DNA from: a virus
Virus record (IMG/VR): IMGVR_UViG_3300005563_000085
Coordinates: 1-29,148 of that record
Strand: one strand, 5' to 3'
DNA length: 29,148 nucleotides
This document shows, one piece after another, positions 1,451-27,963 of this stretch (its first letter is position 1; each line of letters opens with the position of its first letter). The notes under the pieces are model-generated. The model did no database searches. It was not told where the DNA came from and saw only the letters and a list, made by a program, of their open reading frames with translations. The position numbers were made by a program, and so were the translations under genes.

Positions 1451-1990
1451 TTAGGGCTTCGACCACGCCTCACTTTGCGCGCGGTACCACGCCCGCCACT
1501 TCAGCGCTTCGGCCCGCCAGTCGTAGGCGACCCCGAAGTCTTCGACGGTTGTGGAGAGGATGGCAGAGAGCGGAACTCCCGAAGGGGGACCCCCAGATCC
1601 ACCGGGGGGTCGGGGAAGCGCTGCTTCACCACTTGCTGCTGCGTTGAACATGCTGACAAAGCCAGTCCCGACAGTGCAAGCAGCATCAGCCTTCGCATCG
1701 ACATAGACGGGTACCTTCTGGATGAGGGTCTTGGTGCGGGTCTCGATACGCACACGCTCCCCGGCCAACTCCGTTGAAGCCCTAGAGCTTATCCCTGCTG
1801 CTGTTGCTTCATGGGCTGAGACATCGGCCTTGGCTTTGACGAGGGCCTTTTCATCGGCCTTGCGGACGTGCTCAGCCCCCTTGTGCTGTCCGGCTCCGTA
1901 GATGGAGAGCAGGAGCAGGATCACAGCCAGTCCCGCCAGGACATTGCGTCCCAGCGGGGTTCTGGCGAAGGCGACGATGCCGGCGAGCAT
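1451..1990 (-). CDS. Rz: i-spanin (Rz-like inner-membrane spanin subunit)
   Basis: A 179-residue protein with one N-terminal membrane span (about residues 16-33, VLAGLAVILLLLSIYGAG) followed by a charged helical region rich in Ala, Lys and Glu (about 36-90) that would extend into the periplasm. This is the architecture of Rz-type i-spanins, which pair with a small outer-membrane lipoprotein to fuse the two membranes in the last step of lysis of Gram-negative hosts. The assignment is strengthened by a second reading frame inside it that encodes a lipoprotein (1501-1704). It is the last gene of the lysis cassette and starts in a TGATG overlap with the upstream gene. Sequence similarity between Rz proteins is low, so the call rests on architecture and context. 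Confidence 0.8.
   Translation of the reverse strand: MLAGIVAFARTPLGRNVLAGLAVILLLLSIYGAGQHKGAEHVRKADEKALVKAKADVSAHEATAAGISSRASTELAGERVRIETRTKTLIQKVPVYVDAKADAACTVGTGFVSMFNAAASGEAALPRPPGGSGGPPSGVPLSAILSTTVEDFGVAYDWRAEALKWRAWYRAQSEAWSKP
1501..1704 (-). CDS. Rz1: o-spanin (Rz1-like lipoprotein) nested inside Rz
   Basis: A 67-residue protein encoded entirely within the i-spanin gene in another frame. From the ATG at 1704 (or ATG at 1698) it reads MSMRRLMLLALSGLALSAC, a short signal sequence ending in the lipobox LSAC with Cys19 as the lipidation site. The mature part is proline-rich (PDPPVDLGVP, SSPQPSKTSGSP), as in lambda Rz1. It should be exported, lipidated and anchored in the outer membrane, where it binds the i-spanin across the periplasm. 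The open frame extends upstream to 1755, but the extra residues would spoil the signal peptide, so the inner start is preferred. Fully nested Rz/Rz1 pairs are known from lambda-like phages. Confidence 0.8.
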   Translation of the reverse strand: MSMRRLMLLALSGLALSACSTQQQVVKQRFPDPPVDLGVPLREFRSLPSSPQPSKTSGSPTTGGPKR

Positions 1991-2274: not shown

Positions 2275-2501
2275 GACGCGACACCCCCGCCTTGCAGAAG
2301 TGGGTCATCATCGTGCGCCCAGCCCATCCGCCCCATGTGCGCATCGCAAGCGCAGCACTGCATCAGGGGGAAGGTGTCTAGCTTGTCGAGCACGAGCCTG
2401 AACGTATTGTTGCGACAGTTCTTGCAGGCCAACAGCGCGCGTTCGTCCTCATCGACATGGGGCGACTTGAACGAAAGGTGGATTACATTTTCGCCGCTCA
2501 T
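2271..2501 (-). CDS. Small zinc-ribbon-like protein in the lysis cassette
   Basis: A 76-residue protein with Cys26-x2-Cys29 and Cys49/Cys50-x-Cys52 separated by about 20 residues (CKNC ... QCCAC), the spacing of a zinc ribbon. No membrane segment or signal is visible. It overlaps the endolysin stop by 4 bases (ATGA) and the next gene by 4 bases, so it is co-translated within the lysis operon. Zinc ribbons often bind nucleic acid or proteins; here the function is unknown. The location between endolysin and spanins is unusual for such a protein. Confidence 0.75.
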   Translation of the reverse strand: MSGENVIHLSFKSPHVDEDERALLACKNCRNNTFRLVLDKLDTFPLMQCCACDAHMGRMGWAHDDDPLLQGGGVAS

Positions 2502-3280
2502 GAGGTTTTTGCCTTCTGGTGGGAGATGACCATGGCCCCAACGGTCAGGGCCGCCATGCAGGCCGCCACAAGCGCCAGATGGTCAGAGATGCCCTGCACG
2601 ACCGCGGAGTGCCCCGCGTAAGGCGCTATGGCGTCTGACGTGCGGTCGATGACGCCTTTGACCTTGGGCGCATTCTCGGCCGCCACGCTGGCGCCCATTG
2701 AGCCCAGGCCGAGGACGTAGTGCCAGGTCTTCAGCAGCGGATTGCTGGCCGCCGCGCTCGCCGTGGGCGGGGTGTCCACCGTCCGGCTATAGGCGCTGGA
2801 CGGGTCCACAGGCACCGAGCCGGGCTCATCCGTGGACCACAGCTTCACCTCGTCGGCCCGGCGGTTCACGAGGCCCTGGAGCTTCTTCCCGCCGGCGTTC
2901 ACAAACCGCATCAACTCGGCGGGGATCTGATCGAACTTCTGCGCCTTGAGGAGCTGGCAGATGCGCCACTTCGGGTCGATCCCGACGTTGAAGACGAAGG
3001 ACAGCAGGGCGGCGTATTGGTTGGCCGTCAGCTCGGTGACGCACGCCTCTCCGACCGCGCTCTCCAGCCGTTGGGCGGCGGTCGCCAGGTCTTGCCGCAG
3101 GTAGTCGTCGGCCTGGTCCTGGGTGATCGTCTGGCCGAGGTGGACCGCGACTCCGGCGTGGCCATAGCCCACGGTCGGAACGCCTGCGCTGTCGAGGTAG
3201 GCGGTGAGCCGGCACCCCTCATGCGCCTGGACGAAGGAGAAGGCGGCGTCGGGTATCGGTCTTATTGCGGAAATCAGCAT
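2498..3280 (-). CDS. Endolysin, GH24 (T4-lysozyme type) with C-terminal membrane segment
   Basis: A 260-residue muramidase that should cleave the MurNAc-GlcNAc bond of peptidoglycan. The catalytic triad is Glu21 (HEG), Asp30 (YLDSAG) and Thr36 (PTVGYGH), with the same 9- and 6-residue spacing as Glu11/Asp20/Thr26 of T4 lysozyme. The catalytic domain covers about residues 10-150, with LVNRRADEVKLW as the typical end. A linker (150-185) leads to a moderately hydrophobic stretch and then a clear C-terminal hydrophobic segment (about 234-253, LALVAACMAALTVGAMVI) followed by a basic tail. There is no N-terminal signal-anchor, so this is not a classical SAR endolysin. The start is directly adjacent to the stop of the holin candidate, with GGGAAG upstream. 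The enzyme class is firm; membrane attachment is inferred. Confidence 0.95.
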   Translation of the reverse strand: MLISAIRPIPDAAFSFVQAHEGCRLTAYLDSAGVPTVGYGHAGVAVHLGQTITQDQADDYLRQDLATAAQRLESAVGEACVTELTANQYAALLSFVFNVGIDPKWRICQLLKAQKFDQIPAELMRFVNAGGKKLQGLVNRRADEVKLWSTDEPGSVPVDPSSAYSRTVDTPPTASAAASNPLLKTWHYVLGLGSMGASVAAENAPKVKGVIDRTSDAIAPYAGHSAVVQGISDHLALVAACMAALTVGAMVISHQKAKTS

Positions 3281-3748
3281 TCAGAACTTCCCTGTCAGGA
3301 TCACGTGGTTGAGGTTCTGAAGGAAGGTCCAGACACCCGGTCCGATGGCGATGGCGAAGCGGTAGAGCAGGATCAGGCCGCCCATGGCCGTCGCGGTAGC
3401 CCATACGTTACGCAGGAAGGCTTTCCGTGGGCTGGAGAGAGCCGCGACCTCCTTGCGCCCCTCGGTAAGACCCAGGGCGGATTTGATCGCCGTCACGTCC
3501 CTGCGGCCCGCAGCCGCCTCAATCCGCGCCGCCTCTGCCTTCGCCGCGACCCTGGCGACGGCGCGTTTTGTGACGCGCTTGCCGTCCTCGACGCACTCAT
3601 GGACCTGCACGATCAGCTTCAGCAGATCGTGGTTGGATGGGTCGTCAGTGGTGATCGGGTCAATTTCCACGGGCGCGAAGCTCCGAGGCTCCGGCGAGCG
3701 TTTGGGCGAACCGCTTGGCCCGCTCCGAGGGGAACCCTCGACGTTCAC
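3281..3748 (-). CDS. Putative holin or holin-associated membrane protein
   Basis: A 155-residue protein starting at GTG 3748 (a TGA lies two codons upstream in frame, so no earlier start is possible). The N-terminal 40 residues are Pro/Ser-rich, residues 40-105 are a charged helical region, and the C-terminus contains a hydrophobic segment of about 20-30 residues (roughly 113-140, ATAMGGLILLYRFAIAIGPG). A soluble helix followed by one C-terminal span, immediately upstream of the endolysin, resembles XhlA-like or single-span holin components. The Arg inside the hydrophobic stretch is atypical. An 8-codon ATG ATG CGT frame just upstream ends on the GTGA of this start, which could couple translation. 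Function is inferred mainly from position. Confidence 0.6.
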   Translation of the reverse strand: MNVEGSPRSGPSGSPKRSPEPRSFAPVEIDPITTDDPSNHDLLKLIVQVHECVEDGKRVTKRAVARVAAKAEAARIEAAAGRRDVTAIKSALGLTEGRKEVAALSSPRKAFLRNVWATATAMGGLILLYRFAIAIGPGVWTFLQNLNHVILTGKF

Positions 3749-3900
3749 TGCTCACGGCTTTCACGCATCATGGCGTCCTCTTGGTCATGGGGGCGTCTGA
3801 AAAAAGGGCTCGGCGGAGTCGCGCTATGCGTGTGGATGCTTGACACCGCGCCTTAGGGGGCGCTGCCTGCCTGGCTTGATCGCTGGGGAGTGATGACGAG

Positions 3901-4551
3901 ATGCGTAGCGTAGCTATTGCCGCCCTGTGCGCGGCGTCTGCGGTCTCTCTGGCGGGTGCCGCCAAGGCCGATACCTTCGTTCTCACCAACACCACGCACG
4001 ACAATTGCCGGCAGGAATTTCCCGGTCTTCCGCTCTCGATCGGTTGCGCCGATCTCAACGGCAACGGCACGGCCCAGGCGATCCCCGGCGGCTTCGTCAT
4101 CACCGGGCCCGACTTGTTCGACCCCTCACCCGTGGTCGATCCGAACACCGTGACACTCACCGCCACGGCGCTCTCCAACCAAATCCTTTCCTACAATTTC
4201 GACTATTTCACCGAGGACGACGCCAACTCCAACTTCGACGTGGCGGGCGTCATCCTGAACGGCACTGAAACCCGGTTCAGCGCCCCGAACCTCCAGCCGT
4301 TCGTTCACCAGACTGGTCACTTCACGATCAGCGTCCGCACGGGCGACAGCTATGGGTTCTACATCTTCTCGGGTGACAGCGCCGCCGGCCCTGCGGTCTT
4401 CACCGTCCAGCTAGCCGACACGACCACCACTCGGGGCCTTCCGGAGCCGGAGACCTGGGGCCTTATGCTCATGGGCTTCGGCGGCATAGGGGCCGTCCTT
4501 CGGCGGCGTCAGAGCCCCGACAGGATCGGCAGAGCGGTGTCGAAGTCGTAA
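3901..4551 (+). CDS. Secreted PEP-CTERM sorting-domain protein (moron)
   Basis: A 216-residue exported protein. Residues 1-23 are a signal peptide (basic start, hydrophobic core, AKA before Asp24). The mature part is rich in Thr, Asn, Asp and Gly and looks beta-stranded, with two Cys (36 and 49). The C-terminus carries the hallmark of PEPxxW-CTERM sorting signals: PEPETW at 181-186, a hydrophobic Gly-rich segment (GLMLMGFGGIGAVL) and RRR at 201-203. In known systems such tails are processed by a host exosortase and the proteins go to the cell surface or exopolysaccharide. It lies on the plus strand against the phage late genes, with GGGGAG 10 bases before the ATG. Thirteen extra residues follow RRR and overlap the end of the convergent spike gene by 43 bases. 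Its role in the phage is unknown; it is probably host-derived cargo. Confidence 0.9.
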   Translation: MRSVAIAALCAASAVSLAGAAKADTFVLTNTTHDNCRQEFPGLPLSIGCADLNGNGTAQAIPGGFVITGPDLFDPSPVVDPNTVTLTATALSNQILSYNFDYFTEDDANSNFDVAGVILNGTETRFSAPNLQPFVHQTGHFTISVRTGDSYGFYIFSGDSAAGPAVFTVQLADTTTTRGLPEPETWGLMLMGFGGIGAVLRRRQSPDRIGRAVSKS

Positions 4552-5507
4552 TTCCCGCCGCCGTTCGTGACCGTCACCACGTTGGCCCCGACGTGCGTCA
4601 GGTCATGATAGCCTGAGGACCCCTTCTGCAGGATGCAGTTGGTCAGGGTCACATTGACGTTGTTGTTGTTGGCCTTGCACTGGAACGTGTAGATGCCGGC
4701 GCTCGACGGGCAAAGGATGATGCAGTTGGTCAGCGTCACGTTGACCGTCGCACTGGTGGCCTCAAAGAAGATCGGGCCCGTCGCCGCTGCGGGGACTTGC
4801 GGCAATCCATAGCCCGGGTCGATCAGCACGCGGGTAAAGGTCCCTGTCCCGCCCAGGAACTGGATGGATTCGGTGTGGTCGCCGGTCGCGGTGTTCGTGG
4901 CGAACGCGCCTAACACCGTGTCGGTCATCGTCAACGCCAGAGAAGTAGTCGTTCCCCAATCAATCAGCGCCCGCGGCGAGTTGAGGATCTTGGAGTTGGC
5001 GACGGTGAGTTGCGAGGCGTTCAGGCCCGTTATCAGGGCGTGGCCGCCCGTGGTGTCCCCGTTCGTCATGTCGATGGTGACGTAGTGCAGGCTGGCGGCG
5101 GCCGAGCCAGAGGGGCTCGCCCCGGCGGTCTCTCCGAGCCAGAATCGCATACTCGAAGACGCCGGGATGGAGCAGTCCGTCAGGTCCAGCACGGTCCCGT
5201 TCAGGCAGAAGATGCCGGAACCGCCGAAGTCGATGTTGGAGCCGGTCCACGCTCCGTTGACAGTCACAGCCCCAGCCGCGCGCGTCACCGTGCCGGGGAC
5301 CGTGGCCGAGGCGATGGGCGTAAGCGACGCCTGCGCCACGCGGCATCCGGCGGTCGTGTAAAGGTCCCAGACGCCCCGCATGGTGGTCCCGCCCAGCGCC
5401 GTGTCGGCGGCGATCACCGCGGCGGGATAGCTCCCACCCGCCGGAGGTGGAGGCGGGGGCGGCGGTGGGCTCAGGATCGGGGCGTGCCCCTTCAGACGGA
5501 GCTTCAC
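4509..5507 (-). CDS. Putative tailspike or receptor-binding protein with beta-helix-like repeats
   Basis: A 332-residue protein. After a short basic N-terminus comes a run of nine prolines (residues 14-22), then a long region with parallel beta-helix character: recurring short strands and Asn/Thr ladders such as VNVTLTNCIILC and VNVTLTNCILQK, spaced 25-30 residues apart. Right-handed beta-helices are typical of phage tailspikes that bind or cut host polysaccharide. No catalytic residues can be identified. The N-terminal proline stretch may link it to the virion. It overlaps the upstream LamG-like gene by 4 bases and is the last gene of the adhesin block. The beta-helix call is from pattern only. 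Confidence 0.75.
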   Translation of the reverse strand: MKLRLKGHAPILSPPPPPPPPPAGGSYPAAVIAADTALGGTTMRGVWDLYTTAGCRVAQASLTPIASATVPGTVTRAAGAVTVNGAWTGSNIDFGGSGIFCLNGTVLDLTDCSIPASSSMRFWLGETAGASPSGSAAASLHYVTIDMTNGDTTGGHALITGLNASQLTVANSKILNSPRALIDWGTTTSLALTMTDTVLGAFATNTATGDHTESIQFLGGTGTFTRVLIDPGYGLPQVPAAATGPIFFEATSATVNVTLTNCIILCPSSAGIYTFQCKANNNNVNVTLTNCILQKGSSGYHDLTHVGANVVTVTNGGGNYDFDTALPILSGL

Positions 5508-7105
5508 TGGAGTATGAAGCTCAGCATGGCATTGGGGTTACCCGTGGCGCCCGAGACGCCGAACGTTCGCGTGCCCGTCGTTCCCGTGGCGTTGACCTTC
5601 TCGTCCACCACATAGGGGAACGGGCCACTCATCGCGTCGTCACCGCGCTTGTGGCGGATGCGCGAAGAGGCCGGCGGGGAGGGTGTGCCTTCGTTCGCCC
5701 AATCGAACACCGCTACCGCATTGACCAGGAGCGAAAGCGCCGATCCCGACGTGACGGCCGGGCAGACGAAGCCGCTCGCCGGGCTGGCCGAGCTGCTGGA
5801 GCACGCGCTGTCCTGAATGGCCGGGGACGTGCCCGTGTCGCTGCGGTAGTTCAGGAAGACGATGGAGGCGCTGATCAGGGCGCCCTTGGTCGTCCAGGTC
5901 ATCGTGGGACCCGTGGACCACTCAGACCCCGGGTTAGCCAGGAGCCCGGTGTCTCCGGCGCCCACGACCTTGTAGAAGGCCGCGAAGTCCCCCAGGCCCA
6001 GGGACTGCCGGGAATTGGGAACGAGGGTCCAGCCGGTGATGGACGGCAGGCGCGCGGTGCCCGACCCGGAGCTGAACTTGATGAGCGCCACCAGGAGATC
6101 GCCCGCCACGACCGGCTGGCCGTCATTGGTGAAGGACGAGTAGGTTCCGCTGCTCTCGGTGATCGCGGTCGTGGGCTGGGAGCCCGGGACGTTGTGGTCC
6201 CACCAGAGCAGATAGGGCCGGTCGGCACTGGCCCCGGGGTTCTTCGGCGCATCGAACAGCTTCTTGGAGTTGGCGTTCGTGCCGCCGACGACGGTTGCGA
6301 TGTTGCCGAGCGAGCCCTTGTTCGTGGCGAAGGTGGACGCATCGCCGTCGTGGAAGATGATGGGCTGGTGACCGAGCGGGAGAGAGCCGTCAGACCCGAA
6401 GTCCACCGGCCCGGCGTTGTAGAACTTGGTGATGTCGAAGGTGGCGTTGTTGGAGGCGTCGAGCGGCGTGGAGGACGGCGTGTCGAAGAAGAACTGCGCG
6501 CAGTCGAAGTCGCCGCGTACCTGGCCGGTGCCGAACGGGTTCAGGAAGAAGCCGTCGCCGCCGCTGTAGGAGGGGCTCGTCAGGGTGCCGTTCCAGGTCC
6601 CCTGATCGGTGATCCCGGTGGCGACCTGGACGCCATCAATCCAGAGGCTGGAGCGCTTGGTTCCGCTATAGTTGGTGTCCCACGCCCAGAGGTGGTGCTG
6701 GATCTTCTTGTTGATGACAGCGGGCGGCCCGTAGGTCGCAAGCGCGCTATGGTTCGTCCCGCCGGTGGAATCGTTGATGTTCAGACGGCGCAGGCCGCCC
6801 GAAAAGCCGCCGTCCATGGCGTAGTTCCATCCGTTGGCTTCGGCGTTCGCCTTGGCCGGATCGAACTGGCCAAAGGTGAGGCCGTTGCTACGGTTGTCGT
6901 ACATCGCCGAGTGGACGGAGGAGTTTCCCTGCGAGCAGAGCCAGACGCTCATGACCCCCCGCGGGGCGGCGGTGATAGAGCCGGCGGCGTACTTCAGCGA
7001 CACGTCCCGATGGAACGAGACCATGGAGGGCGAGAAGGTGCTGACGGCGTTCCCGCTGAGCGCGGCGAGCTGCGGGAGGCCGAGGCGAAGCGCGAGGATC
7101 GTCAT
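5504..7105 (-). CDS. Large virion adhesin-like protein with lectin-type (LamG-like) region
   Basis: A 533-residue protein rich in Gly, Ser, Thr and Asn with few charged residues, as in phage adhesins. Residues about 45-215 have features of a concanavalin/LamG-like jelly roll: HHLWAWDTNYSGTKRSSLWIDG followed by FFLNPFGTGQVRGDFDCAQFFFD is the usual 'display of a surface with an item drawn on it' pattern of these domains. The second half (about 300-530) is another beta-rich region (GDLLVALIKFSSGSG, LPSITGWTLV) of the type often seen in phage structural proteins. It overlaps both neighbours at start and stop, so it is part of one adhesin operon. Polysaccharide binding is a family-level inference. 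Confidence 0.75.
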   Translation of the reverse strand: MTILALRLGLPQLAALSGNAVSTFSPSMVSFHRDVSLKYAAGSITAAPRGVMSVWLCSQGNSSVHSAMYDNRSNGLTFGQFDPAKANAEANGWNYAMDGGFSGGLRRLNINDSTGGTNHSALATYGPPAVINKKIQHHLWAWDTNYSGTKRSSLWIDGVQVATGITDQGTWNGTLTSPSYSGGDGFFLNPFGTGQVRGDFDCAQFFFDTPSSTPLDASNNATFDITKFYNAGPVDFGSDGSLPLGHQPIIFHDGDASTFATNKGSLGNIATVVGGTNANSKKLFDAPKNPGASADRPYLLWWDHNVPGSQPTTAITESSGTYSSFTNDGQPVVAGDLLVALIKFSSGSGTARLPSITGWTLVPNSRQSLGLGDFAAFYKVVGAGDTGLLANPGSEWSTGPTMTWTTKGALISASIVFLNYRSDTGTSPAIQDSACSSSSASPASGFVCPAVTSGSALSLLVNAVAVFDWANEGTPSPPASSRIRHKRGDDAMSGPFPYVVDEKVNATGTTGTRTFGVSGATGNPNAMLSFILQ

Positions 7106-7712: not shown

Positions 7713-8033
7713 GTGGAACAGCCCGATTGGACTGACGCGCAATTCGCGCTCGTGAAGCCGGCTCGGCGCTTTGGCTTCAGGTCAGTGTTCTGGTGGGCGG
7801 TCTACGCCTGCGGTTTTGCCTGGGCTGCCAAGCAGGCCGGAGCCTCAGGCGAGGTGATCGTCTACGTCTTCGGGGCGTCGCTCATCGTCCCGGGAATGTG
7901 GTTCAGCGCCGAGGTTTTTCGCGCACTTGCTGAGCGGACAAGCGAGCAGGAAGCGTTGCAAGCGCGGTACCGCCTATTAGGCCGGGCCCCGACCATATGG
8001 GCAGAGCGGGCCGCCCGGCGAGGGCGAGGATAG
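7713..8033 (+). CDS. Opposite-strand two-span membrane protein (moron candidate)
   Basis: A 106-residue protein starting at GTG 7713. It has two hydrophobic segments, about residues 24-41 (FWWAVYACGFAWAAKQAG) and 48-69 (VIVYVFGASLIVPGMWFS), and a charged C-terminal tail (ALAERTSEQEALQARYRLLG). It fills a gap of 243 bases that has no minus-strand gene, which supports it being real. Its last 131 bases overlap the end of the convergent ejection-protein gene. Small membrane morons in phages often act in superinfection exclusion or host-envelope change; that is only a possibility here. The ribosome binding site is weak (TAGGG). Confidence 0.6.
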   Translation: MEQPDWTDAQFALVKPARRFGFRSVFWWAVYACGFAWAAKQAGASGEVIVYVFGASLIVPGMWFSAEVFRALAERTSEQEALQARYRLLGRAPTIWAERAARRGRG

Positions 8034-9762
8034 GCGACACAGGATCACTCACCTTTCCGCCAAGGGACATAAGGTCGAGCACTTTCTGCACTGACTTCTT
8101 GGTGCCGGCATTGGCCGCAAGCGTCGAAAGCATACCGGCGGGGGCCGTCACGAGGGGTGCATGGCCGCCGGTGAGTGCGCCAAGGAGCATGTTCGTAGTG
8201 CTGCCCAGGAGACTGCGCGGATCGAAGAAGCGGCTAAGGGTGTTCGTGACGCTCTGGCCCGCCGTCCCGTTGGCAAGCTTCCGCAGAGCCCCGCGTTCGT
8301 CGGGCGTCAGGTTGCGGATTTGCTGGGGGCTTTTCGGATCGACTAGCGGCCGCATCGCCGTCCGCGTCGGGCCGGTGATCCCGCCATTGAGTGGGGTCTT
8401 GAGGGATGCACTGTCGGCCCTGTCGCTGACTTCGCGCATCTTCATGAGGCGCGTGTACCAGTCGCGCGCCTCGCCCAAGACGGGATCGGACGCGCTTTGA
8501 ATCAAGCCCTCAAGCTTGTTCTTGATCACACCGCCGATGTCGGCCTCGTCACTCCCGGGGACGAGCAGCTTGCTGCCGATCTGCGAGCGGAGGCGGTTGA
8601 CCTGGGCGACGCTTAGCCCGTCGCTGTTTTCGGCGAGGCTGCTGATCCGGCGCACAAGGGGAGCCGCCTTCGGGTAAAGGTCGGCGCCGCCCTCGGCCTC
8701 GAAGTGATCGTTGATGTCCTGCGCGACAGCTTGCGCGTCGGCTTGGGGGAACCGATAGCCGGACTTATCGACAGCCTTCCACGCGGCGTCGGACTTGCCC
8801 TGAACCTCTTCGAGCGACAGAGGCTTGCGTGCGCCAATCGAACCGCGCAGCCCGGGCGCTTCGGGCATGGCGCCGGAGAGGGCCGTTCCGATGAGCCCCT
8901 CCGCGGCCGACTGCGGGTCAAGGGCCTGCGGAGCGGTCAGCGCCGGGCGGCCATTCCGCATCGTCAGTTGGGGCGCCTGGTAGGGCGTCGGCATGACGCC
9001 GGCCACGGCGCGAGCGGCGGGTTTGATCGCGGCTTGGACCGGCGCAGCCGCCAGCCCCAGGCCATCCGCCAGCATCCGGCCGGTATCGCCCAGGTCCCCC
9101 GTTGTCCGTCGCAACGCTTCCATGGGCGAAGGCAGCGGCTGCTGCGAACGGGCAGCAAGATCCCGGGTCCGCTGCATCACGTCATGGCCCAGCGTCTGGA
9201 ACGGGGACATAAACCCTGCGGCCGCATCCTGGGCAATCGTGGGCTTCTGGGGGGCAGACGCCGCCTGCGCTACCTGGGGAAGCCGTTGCGCGACCGCGGT
9301 GGGAGCGGAAGGCGCGGTGGGCTGGGACGGCGCCCCCTGCCCCGAATAGTCCATCCAGGGGGGCGTATTGTCCGCAGGCGCGACCGTATCGACGTAGTGC
9401 TGCGTTTCGCGATAGGGCGGGATGCCACCGTGGGCCCTCACAGCGCCAGGACCGGCGTTATAGGCCGCCGCCGCCAGGCGCGGATCGCCGAAGGTATCGA
9501 GCTGCTGCTTGAGATAGCCCACGCCGCCCTGGATGTTCTGTTGGAGGTCGCTGGGATCTACGCCCATGCCCTTCGCCGTGTCGGGCATCAGCTGCATCAC
9601 GCCCACCGCGCCCTTGGGCGAGACGGCCCCATGGTGCAAGCCGGATTCCTGGGTCGCGACGCGAAGCGCAAGGTCCGGCGGGACGCCTTGGCGCTGCGCC
9701 TCTGCAGTCACCATGGCCGCCACGTCGGAAGGCGCGGCGTAGTCCTCCCAGGGCCCGGTCAT
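7903..9762 (-). CDS. Ejection/internal virion protein with lytic transglycosylase domain
   Basis: A 619-residue protein. Residues 10-125 form an SLT-type lytic transglycosylase domain: catalytic Glu39 in the TQESG motif, GVMQLMP at 54-60, QNIQGGVGYL at 75-84 and AAYNAG at 99-104. Such enzymes cleave the MurNAc-GlcNAc bond to make 1,6-anhydro ends. The remaining 490 residues are Ala/Pro/Gln-rich and helical, with a Gly/Ala/Leu-rich hydrophobic segment near the C-terminus (LLGALTGGHAPLV). In short-tailed phages, proteins of this build travel inside the head or neck and are injected to open the peptidoglycan and help DNA cross the envelope. It overlaps the upstream gene by 4 bases and overlaps the convergent membrane gene at its 3' end. 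Confidence 0.9.
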   Translation of the reverse strand: MTGPWEDYAAPSDVAAMVTAEAQRQGVPPDLALRVATQESGLHHGAVSPKGAVGVMQLMPDTAKGMGVDPSDLQQNIQGGVGYLKQQLDTFGDPRLAAAAYNAGPGAVRAHGGIPPYRETQHYVDTVAPADNTPPWMDYSGQGAPSQPTAPSAPTAVAQRLPQVAQAASAPQKPTIAQDAAAGFMSPFQTLGHDVMQRTRDLAARSQQPLPSPMEALRRTTGDLGDTGRMLADGLGLAAAPVQAAIKPAARAVAGVMPTPYQAPQLTMRNGRPALTAPQALDPQSAAEGLIGTALSGAMPEAPGLRGSIGARKPLSLEEVQGKSDAAWKAVDKSGYRFPQADAQAVAQDINDHFEAEGGADLYPKAAPLVRRISSLAENSDGLSVAQVNRLRSQIGSKLLVPGSDEADIGGVIKNKLEGLIQSASDPVLGEARDWYTRLMKMREVSDRADSASLKTPLNGGITGPTRTAMRPLVDPKSPQQIRNLTPDERGALRKLANGTAGQSVTNTLSRFFDPRSLLGSTTNMLLGALTGGHAPLVTAPAGMLSTLAANAGTKKSVQKVLDLMSLGGKVSDPVSPILALAGRPALPIWSGPGLIGGTALATLPARLSAQQVREKPRR

Positions 9763-22983: not shown

Positions 22984-24270
22984 CTAGACAGCTCCAAAGG
23001 CGGGGATTTCGAGCCTGGCCGTCTTCTTGCGGGGCTCTTCGTAGGCCACAGCCATGATGCCGAACGCATCGGCTCCATGGCTTGACCAGTCGTGTTCTGG
23101 GCCGAGACCGACTTCGCGTTCGTCGTCTCGCTTCTCGTGATAGGCGGCCAGCGCGTCGCGCCCGGGCTCTGTCTTCACCTCGTCAAACCACATGCGCGGA
23201 AAGAGCCTGCGGCCCGCGTCCACACGCAGCATCGCCGCGCCGGGGCCTTGGTTGCGGATCACCTCAACGTCGAAGCCGGCGTCACGCGCCTGGTCCTCGT
23301 AGCTGAGGCCCGTGCTGCTTTCTGGCCCCACGCGAGAGCCATCGTGCGGCAGGTAGACCGTGCAACCCCGATAGCCCCGCTCCCGCAGGAGGGCGAAGTA
23401 GTACGCCGGCGGTTGGTTCGTGCCCTCGATGTAGTCCAGCACGCAGATCTTCTGGCCGATGAACTGCGCCACCCAGATCGCAGTGGCGTCCCTGCGCCCC
23501 AGGTCCCAGAAGGTCCGCACCGCCATGTTGGGATCGCGCGGAACAAAGCCGATGCGCCCATCGCGCTTGGCGTCGCTCAGGCTCGATGCGTAGTAGGCGC
23601 CCTCATGCACGGCTTTGAAGTCGCCTTCCCAGATGTGGTCGTACTGCTCCGGGCGCTCGCGCTGGTCCTTCAGCCGCTTGCGCTCCAGGATCGCGGGAAA
23701 CCACGGGTTGTCGCGCCAGTTCATCTCCACAATCCGCATCAGCGGGTCGTGCGCTTCGCGGAAGCGCTTGTGTGTCGGGCTGCGCTTGCTCTCGGGATTC
23801 CAGGTGACCCAGAGCTCGCTGTCCTCCTCGCGCAAGGTCGGGATCAGTTTGACCCAGGCCTCCTCCGTCACGGGCTCGGCTTCGTCCACCCAAGCCAGGC
23901 GGATGCGGGACTTCGACTTGATGCTGTCGATGTTGCGGTCCAGGCCGCTGAAGGCGTAGCTGATCCGGCCGCACGCCGTGGTGATGTACTTCTCGCCGAT
24001 GTCGAAGTGCGGCTTCAGCCAGTCTGTCTCGCGGATCGCCGCCTTGATCTCCTCCAGCGAGGAATCGGCGAGGGAGTTCATGAACTGGCGTCCGCAGAGG
24101 ACGATGCCCTCCTCGCCGGCTTGGGCCCACATATGGGCCTTCACCGCGGTCATCTTGGCGAAGGTTCGGGTCTTCGCTGAACCTCGGCCGCCGTACGATC
24201 CCCGGATATCGGCTTGGCCCTGAAAGACGGGGACTAGCTTATCGGGGATCTCAAGCCTTGCCGTCGCCAC
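22984..24270 (-). CDS. terL: Terminase large subunit (packaging ATPase/nuclease)
   Basis: A 428-residue terminase. Walker A is GGRGSAKT at 27-34 and Walker B is LAWVDEAE at 125-132, so Asp129/Glu130 should support ATP hydrolysis. The motor domain continues with WVTWNPES (coupling motif) and an NPWFP stretch. The C-terminal RNase-H-like nuclease begins at FWDLGRRDAT (about 248), an acidic residue that should hold metal, and ends in HDWSSHGADAFGIMA, a typical terminase closing motif with further acidic metal ligands. It cuts concatemeric DNA and pumps it through the portal. It overlaps the small-subunit-like gene by 20 bases. Family: phage terminase with an ATPase and an RNase H-like nuclease. 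Confidence 0.95.
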   Translation of the reverse strand: MATARLEIPDKLVPVFQGQADIRGSYGGRGSAKTRTFAKMTAVKAHMWAQAGEEGIVLCGRQFMNSLADSSLEEIKAAIRETDWLKPHFDIGEKYITTACGRISYAFSGLDRNIDSIKSKSRIRLAWVDEAEPVTEEAWVKLIPTLREEDSELWVTWNPESKRSPTHKRFREAHDPLMRIVEMNWRDNPWFPAILERKRLKDQRERPEQYDHIWEGDFKAVHEGAYYASSLSDAKRDGRIGFVPRDPNMAVRTFWDLGRRDATAIWVAQFIGQKICVLDYIEGTNQPPAYYFALLRERGYRGCTVYLPHDGSRVGPESSTGLSYEDQARDAGFDVEVIRNQGPGAAMLRVDAGRRLFPRMWFDEVKTEPGRDALAAYHEKRDDEREVGLGPEHDWSSHGADAFGIMAVAYEEPRKKTARLEIPAFGAV

Positions 24271-27042: not shown

Positions 27043-27652
27043 TGGCTTTTCGGGGCTGGAGTTGGATCACTTCGCCGGGCTCGTCCTGCCATCGCTCGCC
27101 GTTGAGCCAGGTGGCGGCGTGCGGGATGAATTGGGCGTCCGTCCACGCCGCTTGGGCCCGCTCCAGACCCCCGGAAAGGATCAGCTCCTCCTCCATCGGC
27201 GGGAGCTTCCGCCAAGCCCTGGTGAAAGCCTTCCGGGCGTCAGCCTTCCCGACCTTGCGGGGGTAGGCCGACCAAAACCGACCGAAAGCCGCCTCCTCGC
27301 GCTCGCGTGACGCCCGTGTAGTTACACACTCACGGGTGGGGGTGGGTGGTTTGGGGGGTTCGGGGGGAAAGGAGGGAGGGGGCGGGTTGTCCGCGGACGT
27401 CCCTGGATTTCCGCGGATGTCCGCGGACGTCCTGCGGACACGCTTGCGCTGGGCGTCCTTTTCCTGCCGCTCCCGGCGGTTACGAAGCGCCTCATCCTCG
27501 CGCGCGCTCGCGACGGCAACCGCTTCCTCCAGGGTTGCGATCCGTGTTTCGTAGGTGACCGCTTCAAGGCGGCGTATTGCAGCGATCAGGGCCGGGCCCT
27601 CAACGCCGAGCGCAATCAGCTCCTCCAGGGCTTCCGTGAGAGGCAGGGTCAC
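26933..27652 (-). CDS. Putative phage replication-initiation/helicase-recruiting protein
   Basis: A 239-residue protein starting at GTG 27652, which overlaps the TGA of the GcrA-like gene as GTGA; the open frame extends to 27925, but that part is Arg/Pro-rich read-through. Residues 30-75 form a charged helix. Residues 89-106 are proline-rich (NPPPPSFPPEPPKPP). The C-terminal domain (124-190) contains GRFWSAYPRKVGKADARKAF and HAATWLNGERWQDE, a signature seen in many phage proteins of replication modules. Such proteins bind the origin or recruit the host helicase. A cluster of palindromic repeats lies inside the gene (27388-27432), as the lambda origin lies in gene O. The function is supported by motif and context, not by a catalytic site. 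Confidence 0.75.
   Translation of the reverse strand: MTLPLTEALEELIALGVEGPALIAAIRRLEAVTYETRIATLEEAVAVASAREDEALRNRRERQEKDAQRKRVRRTSADIRGNPGTSADNPPPPSFPPEPPKPPTPTRECVTTRASREREEAAFGRFWSAYPRKVGKADARKAFTRAWRKLPPMEEELILSGGLERAQAAWTDAQFIPHAATWLNGERWQDEPGEVIQLQPRKANDRPHHDRSPTPREDRLGRMLRGAMAAVDERKSELG
27313..27336. repeat. Inverted repeat beside the G-run tract
   Basis: CCCGTG (27313-27318) pairs with CACGGG (27331-27336), and inside it GTGTA (27316-27320) can alternatively pair with TACAC (27323-27327). It lies in the replication-protein gene, next to a G-run tract and 52 bases from the palindromic repeats. It might be part of an origin. Confidence 0.35.
27334..27386 (+). repeat. G-run tract with quadruplex potential
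   Basis: The plus strand has at least seven runs of three or more G within 53 bases (for example GGGGGG at 27353-27358 and 27362-27367). The minus strand codes for the proline-rich part of the replication protein. Codon choice alone may explain the runs, but together they exceed the usual G-quadruplex rule of four runs. Confidence 0.5.
27388..27432. repeat. Palindromic direct repeats, candidate replication origin iterons
   Basis: TGTCCGCGGACGTCC occurs exactly at 27388-27402 and at 27418-27432, with a third imperfect copy TTTCCGCGGATGTCC at 27408-27422. Each core contains CCGCGG, and the exact copies contain the perfect palindrome GTCCGCGGAC. Cores start at 27391, 27411 and 27421, so they are 20 and 10 bases apart, i.e. 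on one face of the helix. They lie within codons 73-89 of the replication gene. This fits protein-binding iterons of an origin; a coding-level repeat (SAD) is the alternative. Confidence 0.45.
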
Positions 27653-27963
27653 GCCGCGCGCTGCTCCCGCAAAGCCGCCAAGAGCAGGGTAAGGTGCAGA
27701 TGGTCGTCGTTCTCCCGGCGCTTGGGGATCTCGAACGGATGCCCGCCAAGCTTGGGATCGTTGGGGGATATCGGCCGGGCCGGACGCAGGGGCGCGTCTC
27801 TCTCCGTCCTCGCGAGCATGGCGCCGCCGTGACGGTCCACGTAGCCGCTCACCGCGGATCGGGTGATGCCCATGCGCTTTGCGATCTCGGCGAACGAGAG
27901 GCCGTCCAGCAGCAGCGCGAAGCATTGCGCGGACTTCTCGTCAGGCCAGGCTTGGGCGCCCAT
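27649..27963 (-). CDS. GcrA-like transcription regulator
   Basis: A 104-residue protein. Its N-terminus reads AWPDEKSAQCFALLLDGLSF, then AEIAKRMGITRSAVSGYVDRHG; this matches the GcrA pattern (W-T/P-DE, then a leucine-rich helix, 'GLSAxxIA', and 'G-x-T-R-N/S-AV-x-G-x-x-x-R'). The helix-turn-helix is at about residues 22-44. In Caulobacter, GcrA acts with sigma-70 at CcrM-methylated GANTC promoters and controls cell-cycle genes. The C-terminal half here is shorter and unlike the host protein, so sigma contact is not assured. It is in a compact operon (TGATG with the previous gene, GTGA with the next). A phage version may redirect host RNA polymerase. Confidence 0.75.
   Translation of the reverse strand: MGAQAWPDEKSAQCFALLLDGLSFAEIAKRMGITRSAVSGYVDRHGGAMLARTERDAPLRPARPISPNDPKLGGHPFEIPKRRENDDHLHLTLLLAALREQRAA

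Follow-up and report, generated by a model that had tools for sequence, protein, structure and literature searches.

A PEP-CTERM protein gene carried by a podovirus as putative lysogenic-conversion cargo

The lom and bor genes of phage lambda are morons whose products act on the surface of the host cell. Phage P22 has surface genes of lysogenic conversion in gtrABC and sieA (PMC10883804). On the bacterial side, the PEP-CTERM/exosortase (EpsH) protein-sorting system was described by Haft et al. in 2006 (PMC1569441), and its PEPxxWA-CTERM subtype is represented by the profile NF035944. Most proteobacterial PEP-CTERM genes carry a sigma-54-like site upstream.

Here we describe a gene of this kind in a viral DNA stretch of 29,148 bases (IMG/VR record IMGVR_UViG_3300005563_000085, in the following the window). 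The encoded protein resembles the substrates of the bacterial system in having a signal peptide, a PEP motif, a hydrophobic segment, a basic cluster and a threonine-rich body, and in being encoded by a single-gene unit. It differs in that the gene belongs to a phage and does not stand beside exopolysaccharide genes, and in that the protein has a longer C-terminal extension. Also, no sigma-54-like site (TGGC-N7-TGC) was seen upstream of the gene, a site that is not universal among PEP-CTERM genes. A scan for a sigma-70 promoter and a terminator belonging to the gene found neither, the sigma-70 consensus being a poor guide in this GC-rich group. The features of the window are collected in Table 1.

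Table 1. Features of the window, with position, strand and basis of assignment
Feature	Position	Strand	Basis or remark
Rz-like spanin candidate	1451..1990	-	phrog_4952, phrog_1403
Endolysin (phage lysozyme)	2498..3280	-	phrog_7, 160 bits; PF00959, 123 bits
155-aa ORF, possibly holin or spacer	3281..3748	-	Identical protein in contig L002; no family match
PEP-CTERM protein gene, putative lysogenic-conversion gene (moron)	3901..4551	+	216 aa; NF035944 and PF07589 above cut-off; purifying selection in comparison with L002
Predicted Sec signal peptide, residues 1-23	3901..3969	+	Hydropathy and A-K-A cleavage motif
Mature body, residues 24-180, Thr-rich, without Lys, probably beta-rich	3970..4440	+	A chromosomal Phenylobacterium protein is 36% identical over the alignment
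PEP-CTERM sorting tail, residues 181-203 (PEPETW, hydrophobic segment, RRR)	4441..4509	+	Sequence and profile matches
C-terminal extension QSPDRIGRAVSKS and stop	4510..4551	+	Antisense of the 3' end of the spike-like gene; correlation of extension with overlap
Convergent spike/tail-fibre-like gene, 332 aa	4509..5507	-	43-nt overlap; position
Second spike/tail-like gene, 533 aa	5504..7105	-	36% identical in L002, flanking proteins 81-98%
Opposite-strand ORF, 106 aa, hydrophobic segments; candidate second moron	7713..8033	+	Convergent with 7903-9762
Terminase large subunit	22984..24270	-	Placed the phage in its clade
GcrA-like cell-cycle regulator	27649..27963		PF07750, 36 bits, cut-off 26.9

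The most hydrophobic 15-residue segment of the protein lies at residues 4-18, and A-K-A followed by D at residues 21-24 is compatible with cleavage by signal peptidase I. By hydropathy and cleavage motif, the protein apparently carries a Sec-type signal peptide. Towards the other end, PEPETW (residues 181-186) is followed by a hydrophobic stretch (187-200), RRR (201-203) and 13 more residues. An earlier, sequence-only reading of this DNA had pointed out these same elements, all of which are present, and had taken the C-terminus for a PEP-CTERM tail. This assignment is confirmed by three profiles that score above their cut-offs: NF035944 (37.4 bits, cut-off 35), TIGR02595 (20.6 bits, cut-off 16) and PF07589 (26.1 bits, cut-off 20.7). 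Hydropathy reveals no strongly hydrophobic stretch, and hence no second membrane segment, between the signal peptide and the tail.

PEP-CTERM bodies are expected to be rich in threonine, serine and asparagine, low in cysteine and to have few basic residues. In the body of the window protein, threonine (13.3%), asparagine (7.0%) and the basic residues (lysine is lacking altogether) fit this expectation, while serine (6.3%) and cysteine (1.3%) do not clearly do so. The AlphaFold model (pLDDT 47) has no significant match to a fold in the PDB; being poor, it allows only a low-confidence statement that the body is probably beta-rich. There are no convincing sequence relatives in the PDB, and the protein matches no known phage family in PHROG and no defence family in PADLOC. 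The FxDxF-family profile NF038126 matches it partially, over residues 104-203, at 33.2 bits where the family cut-off is 50, and membership of this family was rejected.

The 3' end of the PEP-CTERM ORF shares 43 nt with the convergent minus-strand gene 4509-5507, which flanks it on one side, and the 13-residue extension falls in this common stretch. On the other side lie the 155-aa ORF and the lysozyme-type endolysin. The sequence-only reading had described a plus-strand insertion between tailspike and endolysin. The position is as it stated; the tailspike is a looser assignment, which we infer from the position of the gene and from weak fold matches. The 332-aa product matches no PHROG or Pfam family, and its model (pLDDT 45) resembles beta-helix/pectate-lyase folds weakly, none significantly. 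Across the phages considered below, the length of protein beyond the canonical PEP-CTERM end rises with the length of the overlap (rho 0.77). Continuation of the ORF to the nearest stop codon in foreign antisense sequence would produce such a trend; the relation is partly mechanical.

The reality of the junction can be judged from a second IMG/VR contig, L002, which has the same PEP-CTERM gene (98% amino acid identity) between the same flanking genes. The two contigs share 94% identity over window positions 2495-5506; the spike-like gene next to this stretch, 5504-7105, has diverged strongly. The low identity of this 533-aa tail gene between conserved neighbours suggests an exchange of receptor-binding modules. 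The C-terminal part of the endolysin (window 2498-2900) also diverges from L002, the remainder being identical; judged by sequence, this is likely to be a recombination joint. Outside the overlap, the PEP-CTERM gene differs between the two phages by 18 synonymous and three non-synonymous changes (p = 1.2e-8, with 451.7 of 606 sites non-synonymous), giving a dN/dS of about 0.05 for this single comparison of one pair of close relatives. In this pair, the PEP-CTERM gene is coding and under strong purifying selection.

A single bacterial-type gene in a metagenomic contig could also be an assembly artefact, or host DNA joined to a phage contig. However, the junctions on both sides are repeated in the diverged phage L002, and a like arrangement is encountered in the records G006/G007 and G033, so that this explanation is hardly credible. 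A chimera at 3.75-4.55 kb, which the sequence-only reading wanted to see checked by read mapping, is rejected on the shared junctions of this second phage instead. The pattern of substitutions, together with these junctions, disfavours a decayed passenger as well as a chimera.

The gene set of the window comprises a portal, a major head protein, a terminase, an internal virion lytic protein, an endolysin and a spanin. By terminase, the nearest named relatives are Rhizobium phage RHph_Y1_10 (63% identity) and Sulfitobacter phage pCB2047-A (56%), both of which have an integrase. No integrase is found in the window, which is probably a genome fragment, its relatives measuring 40-43 kb. The twin contig L002 encodes a PF00589 integrase, and integrases are present in both other PEP-bearing clade records, G006 and G033. 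By these sequence comparisons, the phage falls within a clade of temperate podoviruses of Alphaproteobacteria. Given the known distribution of GcrA, the GcrA-like regulator points to an alphaproteobacterial host, and a host within Alphaproteobacteria is probable. A GcrA-like regulator is also annotated in RHph_Y1_10.

Temperate phages have lytic cycles too, and the gene adjoins the lysis genes. Both facts would agree with a role in the lytic phase, in which the protein would alter the envelope ahead of lysis or shield the infected cell against superinfection, instead of acting in the lysogen. Such a role is nevertheless quite improbable, since the late genes are on the other strand and their transcription would yield RNA antisense to this gene, and since integrases are present in those PEP-bearing clade members whose available sequence is long enough.

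The sole bacterial homologue of the window protein to emerge from the collection scan is encoded in a Phenylobacterium metagenome-assembled genome, L083 (36% identity over the alignment). On inspection of the surrounding ORFs, the homologue is chromosomal and lies among housekeeping-type genes, which is consistent with the acquisition of a bacterial gene. The 13-residue tail had been read as the join of such an acquired gene, and this view fits both the chromosomal homologue and, allowing for its partly mechanical nature, the relation of extension to overlap. The same assembled genome has about 28 PEPxxWA-CTERM genes. Among 100 Phenylobacterium genomes, 35 have exosortase and PEP-CTERM genes, 52 have neither, 12 have PEP-CTERM genes only and one has exosortase only (p = 1.4e-15); some of the 12 may be explained by incomplete genomes. 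The sequence-only reading had made the case depend on exosortases in the likely hosts, and they occur in 36 of these 100 genomes, nearly all of which have PEP-CTERM genes. By analogy with the genus of the homologue, the host of the window phage would have an exosortase too.

Searching for hosts by terminase yielded one distant match in 385 alphaproteobacteria and, among 299 genomes of the Phenylobacterium family, matches in five; none has a PEP-CTERM gene in the stretches read. Genome G477, without a match to exosortase or PEP-CTERM, contains two relatives of the G033 phage as prophages, with no PEP-CTERM gene in the stretches read, a single case that is suggestive.

The gene might be a mere passenger, that is, a host PEP-CTERM gene that arrived by imprecise recombination and is tolerated because the late genes stay intact, with no benefit to the phage. 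The chromosomal setting of the closest bacterial homologue is in keeping with this, as is the resemblance of the C-terminal extension to a fusion joint, and with PEP-CTERM genes so abundant in Phenylobacterium, random capture would not be rare. Against it stand the strong purifying selection between the two phages and the finding that unrelated PEP-CTERM proteins have repeatedly been recruited to this site, and we consider it unlikely.

The sequence-only reading treated the locus as a single case, which proved wrong: PEP-CTERM genes recur in divergent members of the clade and in other phages. Within the clade, PF07589 is positive in four of 41 terminase-related records (that of L002, G006, G007 and G033). 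One PEP-CTERM protein is common to G006 and G007 and a different one occurs in G033, both with bodies unrelated to that of the window protein. The G006 gene converges on a 644-aa tail-end ORF, which it overlaps by 34 nt, and has an endolysin as its neighbour; the G033 gene converges on a 726-aa ORF with an overlap of 10 nt. Three divergent clade members therefore have a PEP-CTERM gene that overlaps the last tail gene convergently, by 43, 34 and 10 nt. When 43 further records, most of them short, were screened with NF035944, no other viral one emerged. The PF07589 search finds no PEP-CTERM gene in most clade records, and pCB2047-A has no annotated gene in the 229-nt gap between its spike-position gene and the endolysin.

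The constant proximity to the tail-spike gene could also mean that the product is a virion or assembly protein, such as a chaperone or decoration protein accessory to the spike, with an incidental PEP-CTERM tail. But virions assemble in the cytoplasm, and a protein with a signal peptide and a membrane tail is predicted to leave it; moreover, the gene lies on the opposite strand, the bodies differ between phages and the related pCB2047-A has no annotated gene at that site. We regard a virion protein as very improbable.

Five PEP-free relatives (L305, L307, L308, L322 and L331) have small hydrophobic proteins encoded convergently with long late genes. Taken together with the second opposite-strand ORF of the window at 7713-8033, where six synonymous and four non-synonymous changes from L002 give weak support, these cases suggest that opposite-strand morons in general tend to land at the 3' ends of long late genes. 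Other positions occur as well. In two related phages (L104:2240-3019 and L128:1406-2125), a PEP-CTERM gene lies directly 3' of the major head protein gene on the same strand, apparently at another insertion site; the major head protein there is 44% identical to that of the window. In a further related phage (L136:3197-3874), an opposite-strand PEP-CTERM gene is found between the terminase and portal genes.

Beyond the clade, degenerate DNA patterns for PEPxxW[AG]xM retrieved at least 127 unique PEP-CTERM ORFs from IMG/VR contigs, some of which may include host flanks. Among the matches listed, 21 of 127 overlap with their 3' end an opposite-strand ORF of at least 200 aa, and in 17 of these 21 the partner has at least 450 aa. 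The corresponding counts for a control set of 40 PEP-CTERM genes, all taken from Phenylobacterium genomes, are four and none; for the longer partners, 17 of the 127 listed compared with none of the 40 gives p = 0.013 (Fisher), with the reservation that the controls are imperfect, coming from one genus, having been picked by similarity to the window protein and being limited to 1.5-kb flanks. The bodies of 129 proteins (the 127 listed, the window's and that of G006) form 86 clusters, and the convergent ones are nearly all singletons, which indicates repeated acquisition. On the side away from the convergent partner, an endolysin adjoins the PEP-CTERM gene in L214, L275, L206 and G006, and L194 has a match of tail-lysozyme/endolysin type there; tail, connector and head proteins surround the gene in L280, L124, L207 and L171. 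The partner ORF matches a tail fibre in L164, and many other long partners have no PHROG match, so that a tail function is unproven for some of them. PF07589 recognises each of the nine other phage PEP-CTERM proteins tested, above its cut-off. On this evidence, phage-borne PEP-CTERM proteins form a recurrent class, in divergent clade members and in other phage types.

Several contigs of this set have features of their own. In L164 (5890-7359), the PEP-CTERM gene at the end of the tail-fibre region is followed by a HicB/HicA-like pair and an integrase-like gene. Eleven related PEP-CTERM proteins cluster together (L103, L130, L139, L177, L181 and others), several with LDxLSGTGD near the N-terminus, and one record has a tandem pair. 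Short related proteins that start with MALTPAQLALCSLIFGAG and end in a PEP-CTERM tail occur in L150, L160, L174 and L297; with an endolysin-like stretch near the gene in L150, these are possibly a lysis-linked protein with a sorting tail.

The explanation that we favour, and hold to be fairly probable, is that the window's PEP-CTERM gene is a lysogenic-conversion gene (moron) of a temperate podovirus that acts via the host exosortase. As a single gene antisense to the late operon, it would be transcribed independently of that operon, and this orientation suggests expression mainly in the lysogen. From what is known of the family, Sec would export the protein, the PEP-CTERM tail would anchor it in the inner membrane pending its processing by the host exosortase, and the probably beta-rich body would end up in the outer envelope or the exopolysaccharide layer. 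The sequence-only reading had likewise placed it on the host surface or in the matrix, during infection or lysogeny, where it might mask receptors, change the biofilm or block superinfection. There it might alter what other phages or neighbouring cells meet, and lysogens might thereby keep the prophage. The simplest benefit would be to hinder superinfection by phages with similar spikes, the alternative being an altered matrix or aggregation. The benefit is the least certain step; the position beside the spike gene makes superinfection exclusion matched to the spike attractive, though by itself it is no proof. A wider proposition is that unrelated temperate phages have repeatedly captured different host PEP-CTERM genes at a single site, antisense at the end of a receptor-binding gene, as spike-matched superinfection-exclusion factors in the exopolysaccharide layer, and that these form a general cargo class in exosortase-bearing Gram-negatives. 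As a whole, this is doubtful.

The sequence-only reading knew of no such class as established phage cargo, and the records searched agree. In named phages there is no match for the window protein, for two other phage PEP-CTERM proteins or for a consensus tail, whose 30-aa query makes a weak test. The open-access papers searched contain no report of PEP-CTERM proteins as phage cargo, and prophage annotations reading 'PEP-CTERM domain protein' could exist. If the favoured explanation is true, it adds a new delivery route to lysogenic conversion, in which prophages use the exosortase pathway to edit the surface and matrix of the host. Little is known of what PEP-CTERM proteins do, and a phage in which one is maintained by selection offers a small, testable system. 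The junction between spike and lysis genes is also suggested as an exchange site for surface genes.

Among described phages, pCB2047-A/C and RHph_Y1_10 are the closest parallels, being temperate and podovirus-type, with 56-63% TerL identity, an integrase and a comparable late gene order. Unlike the window phage, they have no annotated PEP-CTERM gene. The likeness to morons such as lom, bor, gtrABC and sieA lies in an accessory gene of a temperate phage for which expression from the prophage and action on the envelope are proposed. In contrast to these, the window gene convergently overlaps the spike gene, and its product would use a C-terminal exosortase tag and hence a sorting enzyme of the host. 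Both morons that alter the surface and bacterial PEP-CTERM proteins are already known; their combination as phage cargo appears to be new.
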